From assembly GCA_019112625.1 (NCBI GenBank), contig DXIW01000041.1, positions 1 through 64,000 on the forward strand: a stretch of 64,000 nt of DNA. The letters are read 5' to 3'. The notes under the pieces were generated by a model that worked only from the letters and a program-made list of their open reading frames with translations, searched no databases and was not told where the DNA came from. A program made the position numbers and the translations under genes. This DNA comes from Candidatus Acutalibacter stercorigallinarum (GTDB lineage: Bacteria > Bacillota > Clostridia > Oscillospirales > Acutalibacteraceae). Of this stretch, positions 1,557 through 38,444 are shown one piece after another; within the stretch, counting starts at the first letter, position 1, and each line of letters opens with the position of its first letter.

Positions 1557-2267
1557 ATGAACGAGACTATGGAAGTGTTGATGAAACGGAAATCCGTGCG
1601 GGTGTTCGAGCAGAAGGACATCCCCGCCGAGGTGAAGGAGGCCATCCTGGGGGCGGCCATGCGGGCCCCCACCGCGGGAAACTCCATGCTCTACTCCATC
1701 CTGGACATCACCGACCAGGCCCTGAAGGACAAGCTGGCGGAGACCTGCGACCACCAGCCCTTTATCGCCGCGGCCCCCATGGTGTGGGTATTTCTGGCGG
1801 ACTACCGCCGCTGGGTGCGGAAATTCCAGCAGGCCGGGTGCGAGAACGTGCCCGCCCCCCGGCTCAGCGACCTGATTCTGGCCACCAACGACACGGTGAT
1901 CGCCGCCCACGCCGCCTGCGTGGCCGCCGAGAGCCTGGGGGTGGGCTCCTGCTACATCGGGGACATCATTGAGAATTGGGAGGAGCACCAGAAGATGTTC
2001 CGCCTGCCCCAGTATGTGGCCCCGGTGTCCATGCTGGTGTTCGGCTACCCCACCCAGCAGCAGAAGGACCGGCCCCAGACCAGCCGCTTCCCCAAGAGCA
2101 TGATCGTGATGGAGAACGGCTACCACGACCTGACCGAGGAGGAGCTGCGGGACTACTACCCCGATGACAAGGCCCGGGCCTTCTGCAACCGGAAGTATGT
2201 TTCGGACTTTGCCTGGGAGATGGACCGCTCTACCAAAGAAATCCTGAAAAACTGGGAGGGGAAATAA
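1557..2267 (+). CDS. Nitroreductase family protein
   Basis: MKRKSVRVFEQKDIPAEVKEAILGAAMRAPTAGN; RBS GGAGGAGG before ATG at 1557. Confidence 0.88.
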   Translation: MNETMEVLMKRKSVRVFEQKDIPAEVKEAILGAAMRAPTAGNSMLYSILDITDQALKDKLAETCDHQPFIAAAPMVWVFLADYRRWVRKFQQAGCENVPAPRLSDLILATNDTVIAAHAACVAAESLGVGSCYIGDIIENWEEHQKMFRLPQYVAPVSMLVFGYPTQQQKDRPQTSRFPKSMIVMENGYHDLTEEELRDYYPDDKARAFCNRKYVSDFAWEMDRSTKEILKNWEGK

Positions 2268-3632: not shown

Positions 3633-3640
3633 TCTGGGAT

Positions 3641-3988
3641 GTGTGACCAGGCCTGTAAGCCGGGTTCTGTCGTGGACAGTCATCTATCTTGGCCGGACGT
3701 TGCCGTCCGGCTCACGCCACCTCCACGGGACGCGCGGGCCGCGCTGTGTGTCCCTCCACGGTGTTGCTTCGGATAGGGTTTACAGGGCCACGGGGTCTCC
3801 CCCGCGCCGGTGAGCTCTTACCTCGCCTTTCCATCCTTACCGGGCAAGCCCGGCGGTATCTCTCTGTTGCACTTTCCCTGGGGTCGCCCCCGGCGGCGGT
3901 TAGCCGTTATCCTCGCCCTCTGAAGCCCGGACTTTCCTCAGACGGGGGGTTTCCCCCTTCGCCCGCGACTGTCCAGCCTGCTCACACG
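3641..3988 (-). ncRNA. rnpB: RNase P RNA, bacterial class A
   Basis: Minus strand begins GAGCAGGCTGGACAGTCGCGGGCG and ends CCCGGCTTACAGGCCTGGTCACA; conserved P4/P5-like blocks such as GAGGAAAGTCCGGGCT. Confidence 0.95.
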
Positions 3989-29795: not shown

Positions 29796-30464
29796 TCACT
29801 GCATGTCATTCTCGAACCGCTCGATGCTGCTGGTGTTCCCCACCACGCACACCACGTCCCCCGCCTGGAAGCGGTAGTCCACGGGGAAATCCACCCGGGT
29901 GTGGTGGCCCCGCTCGATGGCGATGATGTTGATGCCGTACTTCCGGCGGATGTTGGACTCCACAACGCTGGTGCCGATGAGGTCGCCGGTCACCTCGATG
30001 CGCCGCACCTCCACGTTGCCCTGGAGGGTGACGGAATCCAGGAAGTTGTTGTACAGCAGGCCCTTGCCCAGGCGGATGGCCATATCACGCTCGGGATACA
30101 CCACCTTGGCCCCCAGGCGCTTTAAGGCCTCCCCGTGGGTGATGCTGCTGGCCTTGGCGATGACGTTGGGCACCTTCATGTTCAGCACGGTGATGGTGGT
30201 GAGCACGCTCACGTCCACCTTCTCCGCGATGCAGATGATGACCGTGTCGCAGTTCTGCACGCCGGTCTCCTCCAGGGACTCCATATCCAGGGAATCCACC
30301 ACCATGGCCAGGTCGGTGAATTTCCGGGCCTCCCGGACCCGGGACTCGTCCCGGTCGATGGCGATGACCTCCCGGTCGGCGGAGGAGAGGCTCTCCACCA
30401 AAGCCAGGCCGAAGCGGCCCAGGCCGATGACGCCAAAGCTGGCGGATTCGTCTTTTCGTTTCAT
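29796..30464 (-). CDS. TrkA/KtrA-type potassium uptake regulatory subunit
   Basis: FGVIGLGRFGLALVESLSSADREVIAIDRDESRVREA RCK-N, RCK-C after. Confidence 0.93.
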   Translation of the reverse strand: MKRKDESASFGVIGLGRFGLALVESLSSADREVIAIDRDESRVREARKFTDLAMVVDSLDMESLEETGVQNCDTVIICIAEKVDVSVLTTITVLNMKVPNVIAKASSITHGEALKRLGAKVVYPERDMAIRLGKGLLYNNFLDSVTLQGNVEVRRIEVTGDLIGTSVVESNIRRKYGINIIAIERGHHTRVDFPVDYRFQAGDVVCVVGNTSSIERFENDMQ

Positions 30465-30500
30465 TTCGCGATACCTTTCCTTTCTCAGATCAAAAATGGC

Positions 30501-31829
30501 TTACCCGATGGTGAGGGACTCCTCGGTGTAGCGGGCCGTGGGGGCCGGGCGCTCAATCCAGATGGACAGCAGGGTGAAGGTGCCCACCCGGCCGGCGAAC
30601 ATGGTGATGATGAGCACCAGCTTGGCCACCCACCCCAATGCCGGGGTGATGCCCGTGGAGAGGCCCACGGTGCCGAAGGCGGAGACCTCCTCGAACAGCA
30701 GCTGGAGGAAGGTGTACTCCGGCTCTAAAATGCACAGGAAGAAGGTGCAGGCGCACACCAAAAGCAGAGACAGCATGGTGATGAGGAACGCCTTGGCCAA
30801 AGCCTCCATGGGGATGCTCCGCCGGAAGGCGCCGATGTGCCGCTTGGTGAAGAGGCTGCGCACCTCCTGCATCAGCACGAAGAAGGTGGTGGTCTTGATG
30901 CCACCGCCGGTGGACCCGGGGGACGCGCCGATGAACATGAGGAGGGTGAGCACGAAGAGCCCGGCGTCGGTAAAGTCGCCGATGGCGTAGGTGGAAAAGC
31001 CCGCGGTACGGGCGGAAACACTGTGGAAGAAAGCCCCCAGCCAGGTGATGTCCTCGGTGGCCTTCAGCAGCAGGGTGCCCAGCAGGAGCAGCACCCCGGT
31101 GGTGGTGACCACCACCTTGGTGTGGAAGGTGAATTTCTTAAAGCGGAATTTCTTGCTCCACACGTCCAGAATCACCAGGAAGCCGATGCCCCCGAAGATG
31201 ATGAGGCCGCAGGTGGTCAGGTTCAGCAGCACGTCGCTCTGGTAGGGGATCAGGTTCCGCAGGCCGCCCAGAATGTCGAAGCCCGAGTTGTTGAAGGCCG
31301 CGATGGAGTGGAACACGCTGACCCCCAGGGCCTTGGGCAGGGGGAAATCCTGGGAGAACACGATGAAGCTGAGGGCGGCGCCCACCAGCTCGAACCCCAG
31401 GGTGAGGAGCAGCACGCTCTTCACCAGCCGGACCATGCCCTTGGCGCCCTCTACGTTCAGGGCCTCCTTCACCAGCACGCGGCTGCGCATGCCCACCTTT
31501 TTCCCGGCGGCCAGAATCAGGCCCACGCCGATGGAGGTGACCCCCAGGCCGCCCACCTGGATGAGGACCGCCACCACCACCTGGCCGAACACGGTGAAGT
31601 GGTCCGCCACGTCGATGGCGATCAGGCCGGTGACGCACACGGCGCTGGTGGAGGTGAACAGGGCGTCGATAAAGCTCACCGTGGCGTCGTCACGAACGGA
31701 GATGGGCAAAAGCAGCAGCCCAGTGCCCAGAAAGATCACCAAGGCAAAGCCCACGACGATGAGCCGGCCCGGCGGCTGCCGTTTGATGGATAGCAGAAAC
31801 TGTTTCATATCTGTCTGTGCCCCGGCCAA
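30501..31829 (-). CDS. TrkH/KtrB-type potassium transporter subunit
   Basis: TSTSAVCVTGLIAIDVADHFTVFGQ, GASPGSTGGGIKTTTFF. Confidence 0.94.
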   Translation of the reverse strand: MAGAQTDMKQFLLSIKRQPPGRLIVVGFALVIFLGTGLLLLPISVRDDATVSFIDALFTSTSAVCVTGLIAIDVADHFTVFGQVVVAVLIQVGGLGVTSIGVGLILAAGKKVGMRSRVLVKEALNVEGAKGMVRLVKSVLLLTLGFELVGAALSFIVFSQDFPLPKALGVSVFHSIAAFNNSGFDILGGLRNLIPYQSDVLLNLTTCGLIIFGGIGFLVILDVWSKKFRFKKFTFHTKVVVTTTGVLLLLGTLLLKATEDITWLGAFFHSVSARTAGFSTYAIGDFTDAGLFVLTLLMFIGASPGSTGGGIKTTTFFVLMQEVRSLFTKRHIGAFRRSIPMEALAKAFLITMLSLLLVCACTFFLCILEPEYTFLQLLFEEVSAFGTVGLSTGITPALGWVAKLVLIITMFAGRVGTFTLLSIWIERPAPTARYTEESLTIG

Positions 31830-31887
31830 AGCCGGCGGGGCGACCTTCCTTTCTTTTCGAAAAACGGGAGACGGACGGGGGACAGCC

Positions 31888-32511
31888 TCAGCTGTTCTTC
31901 ATCATCACGCTCTCCACCATGTCGGCGATGTGCTCGCAGGCGTCGGCGCACTTCTCCAGGTAGATGTAGATCTCCCGCCAGGCGATGACCTCCAGGGGGT
32001 CCTTGCAGGTGTCGTGGAGGCGGAACATGCAGTCGATGAACAGCTTATCCGCCGACTCCTCCAGGGTGTTGATGCTGACGATGGAATCGTGGATGAGCTT
32101 GGAGCGCTTGAAGTCGGCAAACTCGTTCATCAGCTTCCCCACCTCCTGGCAGCAGCGGATGACAATGTCCGCCATCTCCAGGGCGTCGGGGCGGATGGCG
32201 GTGACCCGGTTGTAGTACAGCCGGATGAACACGTCCTCCAGCTTGTCGGTGAGGTCGTCCAGGTTCTGGCTCAGCTGCAGGATGTCCTCCCGCTCGATGG
32301 GGGTGATGAAGGCCTTCACCAGGGTGTTGAGGAGCTCGTGCTTCTTCAGGTCCGCGGCGTGCTCCACCTTGTGGATCTCTTCCATCTGGGAGATCAGGGC
32401 CTGCTGGTCGAAGTTGGCCATGGCCTTCTTCAGCAGCTGGGCCGCCTGGCAGGAACACTCCGCGCAGGCGATGAAGTTCTGGAAATAGTAGGAGTCTTGC
32501 TTCTTCGACAT
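31888..32511 (-). CDS. DUF47 (PhoU-like) family protein
   Basis: QMEEIHKVEHAADLKKHELLNTLVKAFITPIEREDILQLSQNLDDLTDKLEDV. Confidence 0.92.
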   Translation of the reverse strand: MSKKQDSYYFQNFIACAECSCQAAQLLKKAMANFDQQALISQMEEIHKVEHAADLKKHELLNTLVKAFITPIEREDILQLSQNLDDLTDKLEDVFIRLYYNRVTAIRPDALEMADIVIRCCQEVGKLMNEFADFKRSKLIHDSIVSINTLEESADKLFIDCMFRLHDTCKDPLEVIAWREIYIYLEKCADACEHIADMVESVMMKNS

Positions 32512-32602
32512 AAGGTTCGTCCTTCCTTTCCGCGGGTCTCGGGCCCGCCTTGCCCTTGGGGCATTTTACGAAACAAACTTGGTGGAAACGGAAAAATCGC
32601 CG

Positions 32603-33649
32603 TTAAAAGAGGAACAAGAAGAGCTTTGCCATGACAAAACTGATGAGCCCGCAGCCCGGGAAGGTGAAAATCCAGGTGAGGACCATCTCCCGCACCACCC
32701 CCAGGTTGATGGAGGAGAGCCGGCGCACCGCCCCCACGCCCATAATGGCGCTGGTCTTGGTGTGGGTGGTGGACACCGGGATGCCGAACAGGCTGGAGTA
32801 CAGCAGGCAGAAGGCCGCCGCCAGGTCCGCGGAGAAGCCCTGGTATTTCTCCAGCTTCACCATGTCCATGCCCACGGACTTGATGATCTTCTCGCCGCCC
32901 ACGCTGGTGCCGGCCGCCATGACCACGCTGCACAGCAGCATGAGCCACACGGGGATGGTGGCGCCCACCACGTCCTCCTGGCCATTGGCGAAAGCCATGC
33001 CCAAAAACAGCACGCCGATGAATTTCTGGCCGTCCTGGGCGCCGTGCATAAAGCTCATGGCCGCGGCGCCGAAGATCTGGGCCCCCTGGAAAAACTTGTT
33101 GGTGTGGCGGCGGTCCATGCGGGCGCAGATGACGCTGACCAGCTTGCACACCACCCAGCCGGTGCCAAAGCCCAGGGCCAGGGAGAGCACCAGGCCGTAG
33201 AGGACCTTGGCCCACTCGTCCATGTTCACGCCCCCCACGCCGTTGTGGATGGCGATGGCCGCGCCGGTCAGGCCGGCGATGAGGCTGTGGCTCTCGCTGG
33301 TGGGGATGCCAAAATAAGAAGCGCCTACGCTGTAGACAACAATGGAAAACAAAGCGGCGCACAAGGCGATGAGCGCCTCGCGGGTGTTGCCGCCGAAGTT
33401 TACCATATTGCTGATGGTAGACGCTACGGAGCTGTTGATCTGGGTCATAATGAACACGCCCAAAAAGTTGAACAGGGCGCTCATCCAAATAGCGCTGCGC
33501 ACCCCCATGCACCGTGTGGTCACACAGGTGGCGATGGCGTTGGGGGCGTCGGTCCAGCCGTTGACGAAGATGACTCCCAGTGTGAGGAGCACCGTGATGA
33601 GCAGCACCGGGCTTGACACCGCCTGCTGCAAGAAGGTAAGCAAATCCAT
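32603..33649 (-). CDS. PiT family inorganic phosphate transporter
   Basis: VNGWTDAPNAIATCVTTRCM...GIPTSESHSLIAGL...FGIPVSTTHTKTSAIMGVG. Confidence 0.94.
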   Translation of the reverse strand: MDLLTFLQQAVSSPVLLITVLLTLGVIFVNGWTDAPNAIATCVTTRCMGVRSAIWMSALFNFLGVFIMTQINSSVASTISNMVNFGGNTREALIALCAALFSIVVYSVGASYFGIPTSESHSLIAGLTGAAIAIHNGVGGVNMDEWAKVLYGLVLSLALGFGTGWVVCKLVSVICARMDRRHTNKFFQGAQIFGAAAMSFMHGAQDGQKFIGVLFLGMAFANGQEDVVGATIPVWLMLLCSVVMAAGTSVGGEKIIKSVGMDMVKLEKYQGFSADLAAAFCLLYSSLFGIPVSTTHTKTSAIMGVGAVRRLSSINLGVVREMVLTWIFTFPGCGLISFVMAKLFLFLF

Positions 33650-33679: not shown

Positions 33680-33844
33680 AAAAAACGGGCCAGCACGACC
33701 CGATGGAGGCGCTGTCCCGTATCGCGGCACATGTTCGCGCCTTACAAAGACCAGCACTGGGATAAATAGAGGCGCGGCCCGCTCCCCTGGGAGGAATCTC
33801 CCGGGCGAGCCTCCCCCTATGACAGACTCCACCGCTTATTCCAG
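33680..33844 (-). ncRNA. Candidate riboswitch/attenuator leader, copy A (PiT-DUF47-TrkH-TrkA operon)
   Basis: Conserved CUGGAAUAAGCGGUGGAGUCUGUCAUAGGGG...CCUCUAUUUAUCCCAG (33757-33844) followed by terminator CGGGUC-GUGCU-GGCCCG-UUUUUU (33680-33702). Confidence 0.75.
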
Positions 33845-33851
33845 TAAAGCC

Positions 33852-33880
33852 AGTATAAAGTTTATGCAAAGAGAAGTCAA
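33852..33880 (-). promoter_or_regulatory. Promoter TTGACT-17-TATACT for leader A
   Basis: Minus strand TTGACTTCTCTTTGCATAAACTTTATACT. Confidence 0.85.
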
Positions 33881-34068: not shown

Positions 34069-34533
34069 ATGGACGCAAATGACGAGGCCATCTACCGCCT
34101 TGTGACAGCCACCAACCAGCTGGATGGCAGCTACTACCTCTATGCCCGGCGGCTGGGGGCCAAGGAGAACGCCCTGGCCCTCCTCTACGCCCTCAGCGAT
34201 GGGGAGCCCCACTCCCAGAAACAGGTGAGCCAGGAGTGGCTCATCCCCAAGACCACCGTGAATACTATAGTAAAGGAATGGGAGCAGCAAGGTTACGCTT
34301 CTCTGGGAGAGGGGCGGGGCCGGGAGAAGGCCATCGAGCTCACCCCGGCGGGGCACGCCTATGCCGCCAGCCTGCTGGACCCGGTGTGGGCCGCGGAGCG
34401 GGCCGCCATGGCCGCCACCCTGGAGCTCTTCCCCGCCCAATTTGTAGACGCCTTCGCGTTTTTTACCGCCCGCCTTGCCCAGGAGCTGCAAAAGCGGGCC
34501 CCCGCCCCCGGCGGGAGAAAGGAGGAGGACTGA
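34069..34533 (+). CDS. MarR family regulator
   Basis: Winged-helix DGEPHSQKQVSQEWLIPKTTVNTIVKEWEQQGYASLGEGRGREKAIELTPAG. Confidence 0.9.
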   Translation: MDANDEAIYRLVTATNQLDGSYYLYARRLGAKENALALLYALSDGEPHSQKQVSQEWLIPKTTVNTIVKEWEQQGYASLGEGRGREKAIELTPAGHAYAASLLDPVWAAERAAMAATLELFPAQFVDAFAFFTARLAQELQKRAPAPGGRKEED

Positions 34534-34535
34534 GT

Positions 34536-35930
34536 TTGGATTCCAAGACCCTGTTTGCCAAAACGCCGCCGGTGAAGCTGTTTTTCATCGCAGCCATGCC
34601 CGGCGCGGTGAGCATGCTGGCCTCGGCCCTGTACGGCCTGCTGGACGGCCTGTTTGTGGGGCAGTTCGTGGGCAGCACCGCCTTTGCGGCCCTGAACCTG
34701 GCCATGCCCTTCGTCATCATCAACTTCTCCCTGGCGGACCTGATCGGCGTGGGCTCGGCGGTGCCCATCTCCATCGCCCTGGGCCGCAAGGACGACCAGG
34801 AGGCCAACAACATCTTCACCTGCGCCTGCCTGCTCATTGTGGGCACCGGCGCGGCCATCGGCGCGGTGCTGTACCTGGCCGCCCCGGCCCTCATCGCCAT
34901 GATGGGCGCCGAGGGAGACTTCGCCGCCCAGGCGGTGCAGTACCTGAGGGTGTACTGCATCGCCTCCCCGGTGACCACCATGGTCTTTGCCGCCGACAAC
35001 TTCCTGCGCATCTGCGGGTACATCCGGGGCAGCATGGCCCTGAACATCTTCATGTCCGCCTTCAGCGCCGGGCTGGAGTTCCTGTTTTTGGGAGTGTTCC
35101 GATGGGGCATCTGGGCGGCGGCCCTGGCCACCTGCGGCAGCATGTTCGTCTGCGCTCTGCTGGCCCTCATCCCCTTCTTCCGGGGCAGGGCCCAGCTGCG
35201 GTTCTGCCGGCCCCGGTTCCGGGCCGCCATGCTGCGGCAGATCGTGGCCTGCGGGGCGCCCAACTTTCTCAACAACCTGGCCGGGCGCATCACCTCCATC
35301 CTGATGAACGCCCTGCTGGTGCGCCTGGGCGGCGAGAACGCCGTGTCCATCTACGGCATCCTCATGTATGTGGACGGCTTCATCCAGCCCCTGCTCTACG
35401 GCATGTGCGACTCCCTGCAGCCCGCGGTGGGCTTTAACTGGGGCGCCGGGAAATACTCCCGGGTACGGGCCATCGAGAAGTGCTGCTTTACCGCCAGCGC
35501 TATGGTCTCCGCCCTGTCCATCGGGGTGATTTTGTTGCTCCCCGCCCAGATCACCCGCATCTTCGTGGCCTCCCCCTCCCCGGAGGTGCTGGCCGCCTCG
35601 GTGGGGGCGCTGCAGCTGTTCGCCCTCACCTATATCACCCGGTGGTTCTCCTTCGCCACCCAGAGCTATATGCTGGCCGTGGAGAAGCCCCTCCCCGCCT
35701 CCCTCATCTCCGTGGCCACGGCCCTGGTGTTCCCGGTGGTGCTCATCGCCGCCCTGTGGCCCTTGGGGCTTACGGGCATCTGGCTCAACTTTGCGGGCAC
35801 GGCCCTGCTGGCGGCGGTCCTGTCCCTGGTCATCCTGGTGAAGATGCGGCCCCAGCTCTCCCGGCCGGATGTTCCGGCCCCGGATGTTCCGGCCCCGGAC
35901 ATTCCGGCCCCGGAGCCCCAGGAGCCCTGA
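34536..35930 (+). CDS. MATE family efflux transporter (TTG start)
   Basis: LFFIAAMPGAVSMLASALYGLLDGLFVGQFVG...PLLYGMCDSLQPAVGFNWGAG; RBS GGAGGAGG. Confidence 0.92.
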   Translation: MDSKTLFAKTPPVKLFFIAAMPGAVSMLASALYGLLDGLFVGQFVGSTAFAALNLAMPFVIINFSLADLIGVGSAVPISIALGRKDDQEANNIFTCACLLIVGTGAAIGAVLYLAAPALIAMMGAEGDFAAQAVQYLRVYCIASPVTTMVFAADNFLRICGYIRGSMALNIFMSAFSAGLEFLFLGVFRWGIWAAALATCGSMFVCALLALIPFFRGRAQLRFCRPRFRAAMLRQIVACGAPNFLNNLAGRITSILMNALLVRLGGENAVSIYGILMYVDGFIQPLLYGMCDSLQPAVGFNWGAGKYSRVRAIEKCCFTASAMVSALSIGVILLLPAQITRIFVASPSPEVLAASVGALQLFALTYITRWFSFATQSYMLAVEKPLPASLISVATALVFPVVLIAALWPLGLTGIWLNFAGTALLAAVLSLVILVKMRPQLSRPDVPAPDVPAPDIPAPEPQEP

Positions 35931-35976: not shown

Positions 35977-36005
35977 TTGACATTTCTCCCCGCCCCGACT
36001 ATACT
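35977..36005 (+). promoter_or_regulatory. Promoter TTGACA-17-TATACT for leader B
   Basis: TTGACATTTCTCCCCGCCCCGACTATACT. Confidence 0.88.
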
Positions 36006-36011
36006 TAACAT

Positions 36012-36276
36012 GGGATAAGTGGTGGAGTCTGTCATAGAGGGCGGCACCCTTCCCCAGGGACCGGGGCCAAAAGCCGCGGCTCCTGGGTCATCCTTTCTGC
36101 CAGGCTGGCGTTCTTGCCCTGCAAGGCCCGGCGGGAGGAGGGACGGCTGCCGGGCCTCTATTTATTCCCAAGGTATTTGCGCACAGAAGCAGCAGGGCTT
36201 TTGGCAGGAAAGCGCCCTGTTTGCGGAAAAGCAAAGGGCAGACCCCTTTTTGGGGTTTGCCTTTCTCTGTTTTTTG
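36012..36276 (+). ncRNA. Candidate riboswitch/attenuator leader, copy B (hppA)
   Basis: GGGAUAAGUGGUGGAGUCUGUCAUAGAGG...CCUCUAUUUAUUCCC (36012-36169); terminator GGCAGACCCC-UUUUU-GGGGUUUGCC-UUUCUCUGUUUUUU (36237-36276). Confidence 0.75.
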
Positions 36277-36365: not shown

Positions 36366-38444
36366 GTGGAAAGTCAGCTCAATCTGTTTTACGGCCTTTC
36401 TTTCCTCATCGTGGCGCTGGCCTTCGCCTTCGCCGTGTACCTGTACCTGTGGGTGAAGAAGCAAAAGACCGTAAACGGCAAGATCCAGGAGGTGTCCCAG
36501 CTCATCAAAGAGGGGGCCAACACCTTCATGCGCCGGGAGTACATCGTCCTGGCCAAGTTCGCCGCCGTGGCCGCCGTGGTCATCCTCATCCTGCTGCCCT
36601 CCCCCATCTGGCAGGGCAGCCCGGTGGATAACATCTCCATGGCTTTGGCCTACATCGCCGGCACGGTCCTGTCCGCCGTGGCCGGGAAGATCGGCATTCT
36701 GGTAGCCACCCTCTCCAACGCCCGCACCGCCGAGGCCGCCCAGAAGGGCATCAAGCCCGCGTTTCTCATCGGCTTCCGGGGCGGCGCTGTCATGGGTCTG
36801 CTGGTGGTGGGCTTCTCCCTGCTGGGCGTGGCCGCCGTACTGCTGGCCACCGGCGACTCCAGCATCCTGCTGGGCTTCTCCTTCGGCGCCAGCTCCCTGG
36901 CCCTGTTCGCCAAGGCGGGCGGCGGTATCTTCACCAAGACCGCCGATGTCTCCGCCGACCTCACCGGCAAGGTGGAGCTGGGCATCCCGGAGGACGACCC
37001 CCGCAACCCCGCGGTCATCGCCGATAACGTGGGCGACAACGTGGGCGACGTGGCCGGCATGGGCGCCGACCTGTTCGACTCCAACGTGGCCGCCATGGCC
37101 TCGGCCCTGGTCATCGCCCAGTCTCTAAGCGGCACGGGCTTCAGCAACGTGAGCATGGTGTTCTGCTACGCCATCCTGGGGCTGTTCGCCTCCATCATCG
37201 GCATCGCCACCGCCCGGGTGGGCAAAAAGGGCCCCACCAGCGCACTGAACTCCTCCACTTATGTGACCACCGCTGTGTTCCTGGTGCTCACTGCCCTGTC
37301 CAACCTGGTGTTCGAGGGCTTCTCCTGGCGCATCTGGGGCGCGGCTGCCGTGGGCCTGCTGGTAGGCGTCATCATCGGCATCACCACCGACTACTTCACC
37401 GACGACTCCAAGTCCCCGGTGAAGAAGGTGGCCAAGGCCTCCGGCTCCGGCCCGGCCTTCACGGTGCTGTCCGGCATCTCCTACGGCTTCATCTCCGCCC
37501 TGCCCGCCATGGTGGGCATCGCCATCTCCGCCCTGGTGGCCTATAAGCTCTGCGAGCCCATGGGCGATGGCTACGCCATCTTCGGCATCTCCATGGCCGC
37601 TGTGGGCATGCTCTCCATCGTGGGCATGATCATCTCCAACGACGCCTACGGCCCCATTGTGGACAACGCCCGGGGCCTGGCGGAAATGGGCGGCCTGGGT
37701 GAGGAGACCATCCGCACCGCCGACGAGCTGGACAGCGCCGGCAACACGGTAAAGGCTGTGACCAAGGGCTTCTCCATCAGCGCCGCGGGCCTGACTGTCA
37801 TCTCCCTGCTGGGCGCCTTTATGAGCGAGGCCAACGACGCCCTTGTCGCCGCCGGGAAGGCGGTTATCTCCGGGTTCGACATTATGAACCCCACCGTGTT
37901 CTTCGGCATCCTCATCGGCGCCTCCATCCCCGCGGTGTTCTCCGCCATGCTCATTCTGGGCGTGGATAAGAACGCCCAGCGCATGGTGGCCGAGATCCAT
38001 CGCCAGTTCAGCGAGATCGCAGGCCTGCGGGAGGGCAAGGTGAAGCCCGAGTACGACAAGTGCATCGACATCGCCACCTCCGGCGCCATCCATGAGCTGA
38101 TCCCCGCCGGCCTGATGACCATTGTAGCCACCCTGATCGTGGGCTTTATCGGCGGGCCCTCCGCCATCGGCGGGTTCCTGCTGGGCAACATCGTCAGCGG
38201 GCTGCTCATCGCCCTGTTCATGTCCAACGCCGGCGGCCTGTGGGACAACTGTAAGAAGTACATCGAGGCCGGGGCCGAGGGCGGCAAGAACAGCAAGGCC
38301 CACAAGGCCGCCGTCATCGGCGACACCGTGGGCGACCCCTTCAAGGACACGGCCGGCCCCTCCATCAACACCCAGATCACTGTGGTGTCCCTGGTGGCTT
38401 CCCTGACCTCGTCCCTGTTCGTCTGGTTCTCGATTTTCCACTGA
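36366..38444 (+). CDS. hppA: Membrane-bound ion-translocating pyrophosphatase
   Basis: TADVSADLTGKVELGIPEDDPRNPAVIADNVGDNVGDVAGMGADLFDS; GTG start with RBS GTGAGGA. Confidence 0.95.
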   Translation: MESQLNLFYGLSFLIVALAFAFAVYLYLWVKKQKTVNGKIQEVSQLIKEGANTFMRREYIVLAKFAAVAAVVILILLPSPIWQGSPVDNISMALAYIAGTVLSAVAGKIGILVATLSNARTAEAAQKGIKPAFLIGFRGGAVMGLLVVGFSLLGVAAVLLATGDSSILLGFSFGASSLALFAKAGGGIFTKTADVSADLTGKVELGIPEDDPRNPAVIADNVGDNVGDVAGMGADLFDSNVAAMASALVIAQSLSGTGFSNVSMVFCYAILGLFASIIGIATARVGKKGPTSALNSSTYVTTAVFLVLTALSNLVFEGFSWRIWGAAAVGLLVGVIIGITTDYFTDDSKSPVKKVAKASGSGPAFTVLSGISYGFISALPAMVGIAISALVAYKLCEPMGDGYAIFGISMAAVGMLSIVGMIISNDAYGPIVDNARGLAEMGGLGEETIRTADELDSAGNTVKAVTKGFSISAAGLTVISLLGAFMSEANDALVAAGKAVISGFDIMNPTVFFGILIGASIPAVFSAMLILGVDKNAQRMVAEIHRQFSEIAGLREGKVKPEYDKCIDIATSGAIHELIPAGLMTIVATLIVGFIGGPSAIGGFLLGNIVSGLLIALFMSNAGGLWDNCKKYIEAGAEGGKNSKAHKAAVIGDTVGDPFKDTAGPSINTQITVVSLVASLTSSLFVWFSIFH

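Follow-up and report, generated by a model that had tools for sequence, protein, structure and literature searches.

An uncatalogued riboswitch-candidate leader RNA with a conserved one-sided bulge ahead of hppA and ion-transport genes

The c-di-AMP riboswitch (ydaO-yuaA, RF00379) shuts off K+ transport genes by transcription termination, and T-box leaders carry a one-sided bulge that holds UGG(N) beside a terminator. The Na+-I riboswitch (DUF1646 motif) has its conserved nucleotides in two clusters, one at the base of P1 and one in the P2 loop, and activates genes (White et al. 2022, PMC9337991), and the Li+ riboswitches nhaA-I and nhaA-II are activating switches for nhaA genes (PMC9646797). 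The leader RNA described here resembles each of them in part. Like Na+-I, it is a small leader with a conserved core beside ion-transport genes and has Firmicutes among its hosts, but it contains one 15-nt one-sided bulge instead of two clusters and is predicted to turn genes off rather than on. The Li+ riboswitches are likewise small leaders that sense ions and precede cation transporters; however, they activate nhaA, and no nhaA is among the annotated targets of the new RNA, which has no Rfam match. RF00379 also controls K+ transport genes, but it is a 134-position model, whereas the new RNA has about 60 nt and a different core. Its bulge beside a terminator recalls the T-box, but it lacks the specifier hairpin and an Rfam match, and aminoacyl-tRNA or amino-acid genes are not among its targets. 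None of the 4227 models of Rfam 15, among which we assume the Na+-I model to be, matched the RNA at the gathering threshold or at E values up to 5; specifically, neither Na+-I nor RF00379 matched at the motif copies. The core sequence was not found in the literature searched, which did not include supplementary files and most subscription papers, and the main text of two genome-wide ncRNA surveys, searched by gene name, does not mention these target genes. Our best call is a new, uncatalogued class of riboswitch candidates, for which ligand binding, probably of an ion or small molecule, is inferred.

We analysed a 64,000-nt stretch (the window) of contig DXIW01000041.1 from Candidatus Acutalibacter stercorigallinarum, which contains two copies of the RNA (Table 1). 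A first-pass annotation had described a promoter, the block GGGAUAAGUGGUGGAGUCUGUCAUAGAGG, a closing strand CCUCUAUUUAUUCCC and a terminator for copy B, and all four lie exactly where it had placed them. It had also claimed a block common to both copies, and a sequence search of the assembly confirmed AAGYGGTGGAGTCTGTCATAGRGG in copy A (33837-33814, - strand) and copy B (36017-36040, + strand). The genome-wide motif search that it had suggested returned only A and B in the 2.19-Mb assembly, and there was no third site for GGGAUAAGUGGUGGAGUCUGUCAUAGAGG with up to 3 mismatches allowed.

Table 1. Positions of the two RNA copies and adjoining features in the window
Feature	Position	Strand	Basis or remark
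Copy B, RNA	36012-36168	+	Leader upstream of hppA
Copy B, sigma-70 promoter TTGACA-17-TATACT	35977-36005	+	Sequence; family-wide placement. TTGACA 35977-35982, 17 nt, TATACT 36000-36005
Copy B, P1 5' strand GGGAUAA	36012-36018	+	Pairs with 36162-36168; GGGATAAGTGGTGG begins at 36012
Copy B, 15-nt one-sided bulge GUGGUGGAGUCUGUC	36019-36033	+	Conservation; terminator-arm complementarity
Copy B, P2 5' strand AUAGAGG	36034-36040	+	Pairs with 36155-36161
Copy B, long variable arm capping P2	36041-36154	+	Not conserved
Copy B, 3' strands CCUCUAU (P2) and UUAUUCC (P1)	36155-36168	+	Closing side; CCTCTATTTATTCCC at 36155-36169
Copy B, intrinsic terminator	36234-36276	+	5' arm GGCAGACCCC at 36237-36246; stem 36234-36264, folding energy -22.4 kcal/mol
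hppA, membrane pyrophosphatase	36366-38444	+	Predicted regulated gene; GNTVKA signature; GTG start at 36366, about 100 nt 3' of the copy B terminator stem
Copy A, RNA	33757-33844	-	Held-out covariance model match
Copy A, P1	33844-33836/33765-33757	-	
Copy A, core	33835-33821	-	
Copy A, P2	33820-33814/33772-33766	-	
Copy A, promoter TTGACT-17-TATACT	33852-33880	-	Sequence
Copy A, terminator	33680-33719	-	5' side GGGACAGCGCCUCC complementary to core
Operon downstream of copy A: PiT phosphate permease, DUF47/PhoU_div, TrkH, TrkA	29796-33649	-	Pfam, NCBIfam

In other genomes of the order, exact matches to the 17-mer GGTGGAGTCTGTCATAG numbered a dozen, whereas by our estimate about 0.1 would arise by chance in 295 genomes of some 2 Mb each; hence, the shared block is not due to chance. 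Pattern matches with 2 mismatches were dropped as evidence, since they are largely chance and a reversed control also gives many. A covariance model was built from a seed of 16 sequences, taken from the exact and one-mismatch 17-mer matches in the order, with the window copies held out. This model found copy A with 55 bits (E = 1.6e-11) and copy B with 22 bits (E = 0.004), the weak score of B being due to a 114-nt insert in P2. A pattern scan over 84,980 species yielded at least 116 DNA stretches in which the covariance model finds the motif. In all, at least about 120 non-redundant members were recovered, mainly from Oscillospirales (Gemmiger, Agathobaculum, Pseudoflavonifractor, Fournierella, Acutalibacter), with some from Lachnospirales (Blautia, Lachnoclostridium) and Erysipelotrichales (Massilimicrobiota, Faecalitalea, Thomasclavelia, Merdibacter) and one from a Christensenella-like genome, all as read from the record names. 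The absence of homologues in other genomes, which would have refuted the initial reading, can thus be ruled out, and the number of members, at least about 120, supports the view, along with promoter placement, that A and B represent the same regulatory leader RNA. Three weak model matches (L184, L185 and L186, E 0.002-0.02) were dropped, as they lack proper helices or lie inside coding sequence. The distribution is patchy: whole-genome sampling found the motif in 18/200 genomes of the family and 27/394 of the order, and a phylum sample (n = 349) gave only the window's own genome and one weak match. In Faecalitalea cylindroides ATCC 27803 (L141), two divergent copies lie about 150 nt apart, at 1637-1694 (-) and 1848-1903 (+).

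The RNA consists of two stacked helices, P1 (7-9 bp) and P2 (about 7 bp), which adjoin directly on the 3' side and are separated on the 5' side by the 15-nt bulge GYGGUGGAGUCUGUC. In an alignment of 77 sequences made with MAFFT and without use of structure, 14 of 16 pairs showed two-sided changes, and the covariation score was 0.487, compared with 0.224±0.010 for shuffled and at most 0.192 for slid controls. RNAalifold, unaided, returned the same P1 and P2, and these are the outer and inner helices, respectively, that had been named from the two window copies alone. By covariation, the RNA therefore has the conserved structured 5'-leader domain expected of a riboswitch. One group of hppA leaders carries ACCG/CGGU instead of AUAG/CUAU as inner P2 pairs with the core unchanged; L208, L210, L211, L212 and L213 (at about 1500-1570) represent this natural compensatory variant. 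The end of P2 is not conserved and ranges from a few nt to more than 110 nt across the family, the arm reaching about 80 nt in members other than copy B. The long middle arm noted earlier for copy B is thus real, being the P2 insert, but falls outside the conserved core. The bulge is conserved across members, although this conservation is partly imposed by a search pattern that contains the core; under looser criteria, some members with core changes do appear (L047, L182, L183, L188). A candidate class with such covariation that is missing from Rfam is a rare find in common gut bacteria, its carriers including Gemmiger, Agathobaculum, Blautia, Pseudoflavonifractor and Massilimicrobiota.

Candidatus Acutalibacter pullistercoris (L127/L149, DXDU01000139.1) has kept both copies about 2.1 kb apart in the same divergent PiT/hppA layout. 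Long aligned blocks nearby are 79-88% identical in DNA to the window, and the P2 arm of its copy B is different and shorter. To judge from these sequences, the core stays conserved as the sequence around it diverges.

A predicted sigma-70 promoter (TTG[AC][ACT], 15-19 nt, TANNNT) lies just 5' of P1 in 115/119 members but in only 3-4 of 119 control stretches, and its -10 box usually ends 5-16 nt from P1. Hence, the family RNA most likely begins at P1, at about position 36012 for copy B; these starts are predictions without 5'-end mapping. A start downstream of the conserved block would have spoken against the first-pass annotation, and the position of the predicted promoters instead puts the block inside the RNA.

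On its 3' side, the core has a segment, GGAGUCUGUC, that is similar to the 3' arm of the downstream terminator. In copy B, 9 of the 10 bulge bases 36024-36033 can pair with GGCAGACCCC, and in copy A the duplex of the core with the terminator sequence GGACAGCGCCUCC has an energy of -16.9 kcal/mol. Because core duplex energies stood out only moderately from those of shuffled sequences (42/121 at 5%), we chose 351 unrelated terminators from the same loci as control. The best match between the core and the terminator 5' arm averaged 7.96 of 10 positions for 78 motif-linked terminators and 7.01 for the unrelated ones (p = 2e-12), and RCAGR was present in the arm of 50/78 motif-linked compared with 55/351 unrelated terminators (p = 6e-17). 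The mutually exclusive pairing expected of a riboswitch coupled to its expression platform is therefore met at p = 2e-12, as a computed and not a measured property. A terminator was missing in 25/121 members in one scan, and a stricter scan placed one in only 78 members. Minimum-energy folding of full-length A or B did not show two competing states. Three Blautia hppA leaders (L074, L097, L134) yielded no terminator, and their ribosome site is covered by a hairpin whose 5' strand can pair with the core. Our reading of these three sequences suggests translational control with the same sign as in the terminator layout.

The complementarity of the conserved bulge to the terminator 5' arm predicts an OFF switch, and the terminator and ribosome-site layouts lead to one sign, in which the core is held in a pocket and the gene is off. 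We propose that the RNA would start at P1 and fold into a P1-P2 rod with the 15-nt bulge as the likely ligand pocket. With abundant ligand, the bulge would be held in the pocket and the downstream terminator would form, turning off hppA (copy B) and PiT-DUF47-TrkH-TrkA (copy A). With little ligand available, the bulge segment GGAGUCUGUC would pair with the terminator 5' arm, and transcription would read through. Identifying the block as a one-sided bulge able to pair with the terminator arm adds an inferred polarity, off with ligand, to what had been noted before. The copy B bulge is probably both ligand pocket and antiterminator strand, for which there are no binding data. We consider it likely that copy B belongs to an undescribed class of cis-acting, riboswitch-like leaders with a bulge pocket and an OFF response to ligand. 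The family, its covarying structure, promoter position, gene association and core-terminator complementarity are computed results; binding of a small ligand and the OFF sign are inferred without ligand, binding or expression data, as is a connection to energy status or to monovalent cations, most likely K+.

The genes behind the motif form a consistent set of ion-transport and energy genes, as expected for a riboswitch. Among the matches listed for the at least about 120 non-redundant members, the gene that follows encodes a CitMHS/ArsB-like permease (29), PiT (26), a membrane pyrophosphatase (hppA, 22), TrkH (17), pyruvate kinase (7), a CaCA antiporter (2) or a P-type ATPase (2); PutP, NptA and others occur once each. 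PiT operons often extend to DUF47, TrkH and TrkA, and TrkH is often followed by TrkA. In Erysipelatoclostridium and Thomasclavelia (L092, L158), the motif lies upstream of a gene for a P-type cation ATPase and then TrkA-like genes, an unusual pairing. The idea of an ion-gene regulon, inferred originally from two copies, gains support from these targets, most of which are ion-transport or energy genes, whereas the kind of effector, ligand or protein, lies outside this evidence. The subtype of hppA gives an independent clue to the signal. GNT-V-K-A was present in all 21 readable motif-linked genes (the window gene and L217-L245), while of the 28 hppA genes without the motif that we inspected in the order, 21 had the alanine and 7 the lysine form. 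The lysine of GNTVKA marks K+-independent H+-pumping pyrophosphatases, and the alanine form is K+-dependent (PMC10897367). At orthologous hppA, TrkH and CitMHS-like genes in relatives, we found no known riboswitch in the same place, which leaves no hint to the ligand by replacement, and no diverged motif copies apart from L217, an already known carrier.

The competition between bulge and terminator is silent on the type of effector, and the leader could instead be the site of a trans-acting RNA-binding attenuation or antitermination protein (PyrR- or BglG-like) that controls an ion regulon through the same competition. Protein-bound leaders, too, typically take the form of compact hairpins at unlinked genes, with an asymmetric bulge that is conserved. 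However, no candidate regulator gene recurs beside the motif copies, and the bulge is constant over several orders while the targets differ and only a few per cent of genomes carry it, so that a protein partner would have to travel along; we regard a protein site as unlikely. A riboswitch of opposite sign appears distinctly more improbable. Such a switch would be on with ligand, for example Na+-activated like Na+-I, with the core freed by the ligand or with P1/P2 and the core-terminator pairing coexisting. Several targets are Na+-coupled or cation-extruding (PutP, NptA, CaCA, P-type ATPase, antiporter-like permease), and Na+-I does activate genes (PMC9337991). Yet the conserved bulge is itself the antiterminator strand, so a pocket made from it should favour termination, the Blautia ribosome-site layout also gives the OFF sign, and the motif-linked hppA is of the K+-independent H+-pump type and not a Na+ pump. 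We give least credence of all, and very little, to a constitutive 5' stabilising hairpin or attenuator without effector. No effector has been demonstrated, and P1-P2 might shield the message from its position at the very 5' end, but a structural cap needs no 15-nt sequence-constant bulge, and both the terminator-arm complementarity and the restriction to ion and energy genes would remain unexplained.

For the preferred OFF riboswitch, the set of PiT, Trk, H+-pyrophosphatase, CitMHS-like permease and pyruvate kinase does not indicate a single ligand, and K+ itself, c-di-AMP or an energy or phosphate signal are possible. Pyruvate kinase requires K+. A K+-linked signal fits the targets and the sign best, without determining the ligand: a signal of K+ sufficiency is compatible with the predicted shut-off of Trk uptake, pyruvate kinase, the K+-independent H+-pyrophosphatase and coupled carriers. 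The more specific idea that this is the first K+-sensing riboswitch, through which sufficient K+ shuts off TrkH/TrkA, the K+-independent H+-pyrophosphatase, pyruvate kinase and coupled ion carriers, is tentative and, though possible, doubtful. A Na+ ligand with OFF logic was put low, because such a switch would shut off exporters in high Na+. We could not exclude c-di-AMP by a missing cyclase, since the cyclase domain PF02457 is present in 37/38 carrier genomes, which allows c-di-AMP sensing without demonstrating it. RF00379 had a match anywhere in only 1/38 carrier genomes; this near absence decides nothing, as it is rare in the whole order (8/197). The target list opens the question of RNA-based sensing of K+ or energy status in these anaerobes to direct tests with a 60-nt RNA.

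Between the two RNA copies of the window lie genes for a MarR-type regulator and a MATE transporter (34069-35930, +), neither of which has the motif upstream. The sole above-threshold Rfam match in the window was the bacterial RNase P RNA class A (RF00010) at 3640-3984 (-).
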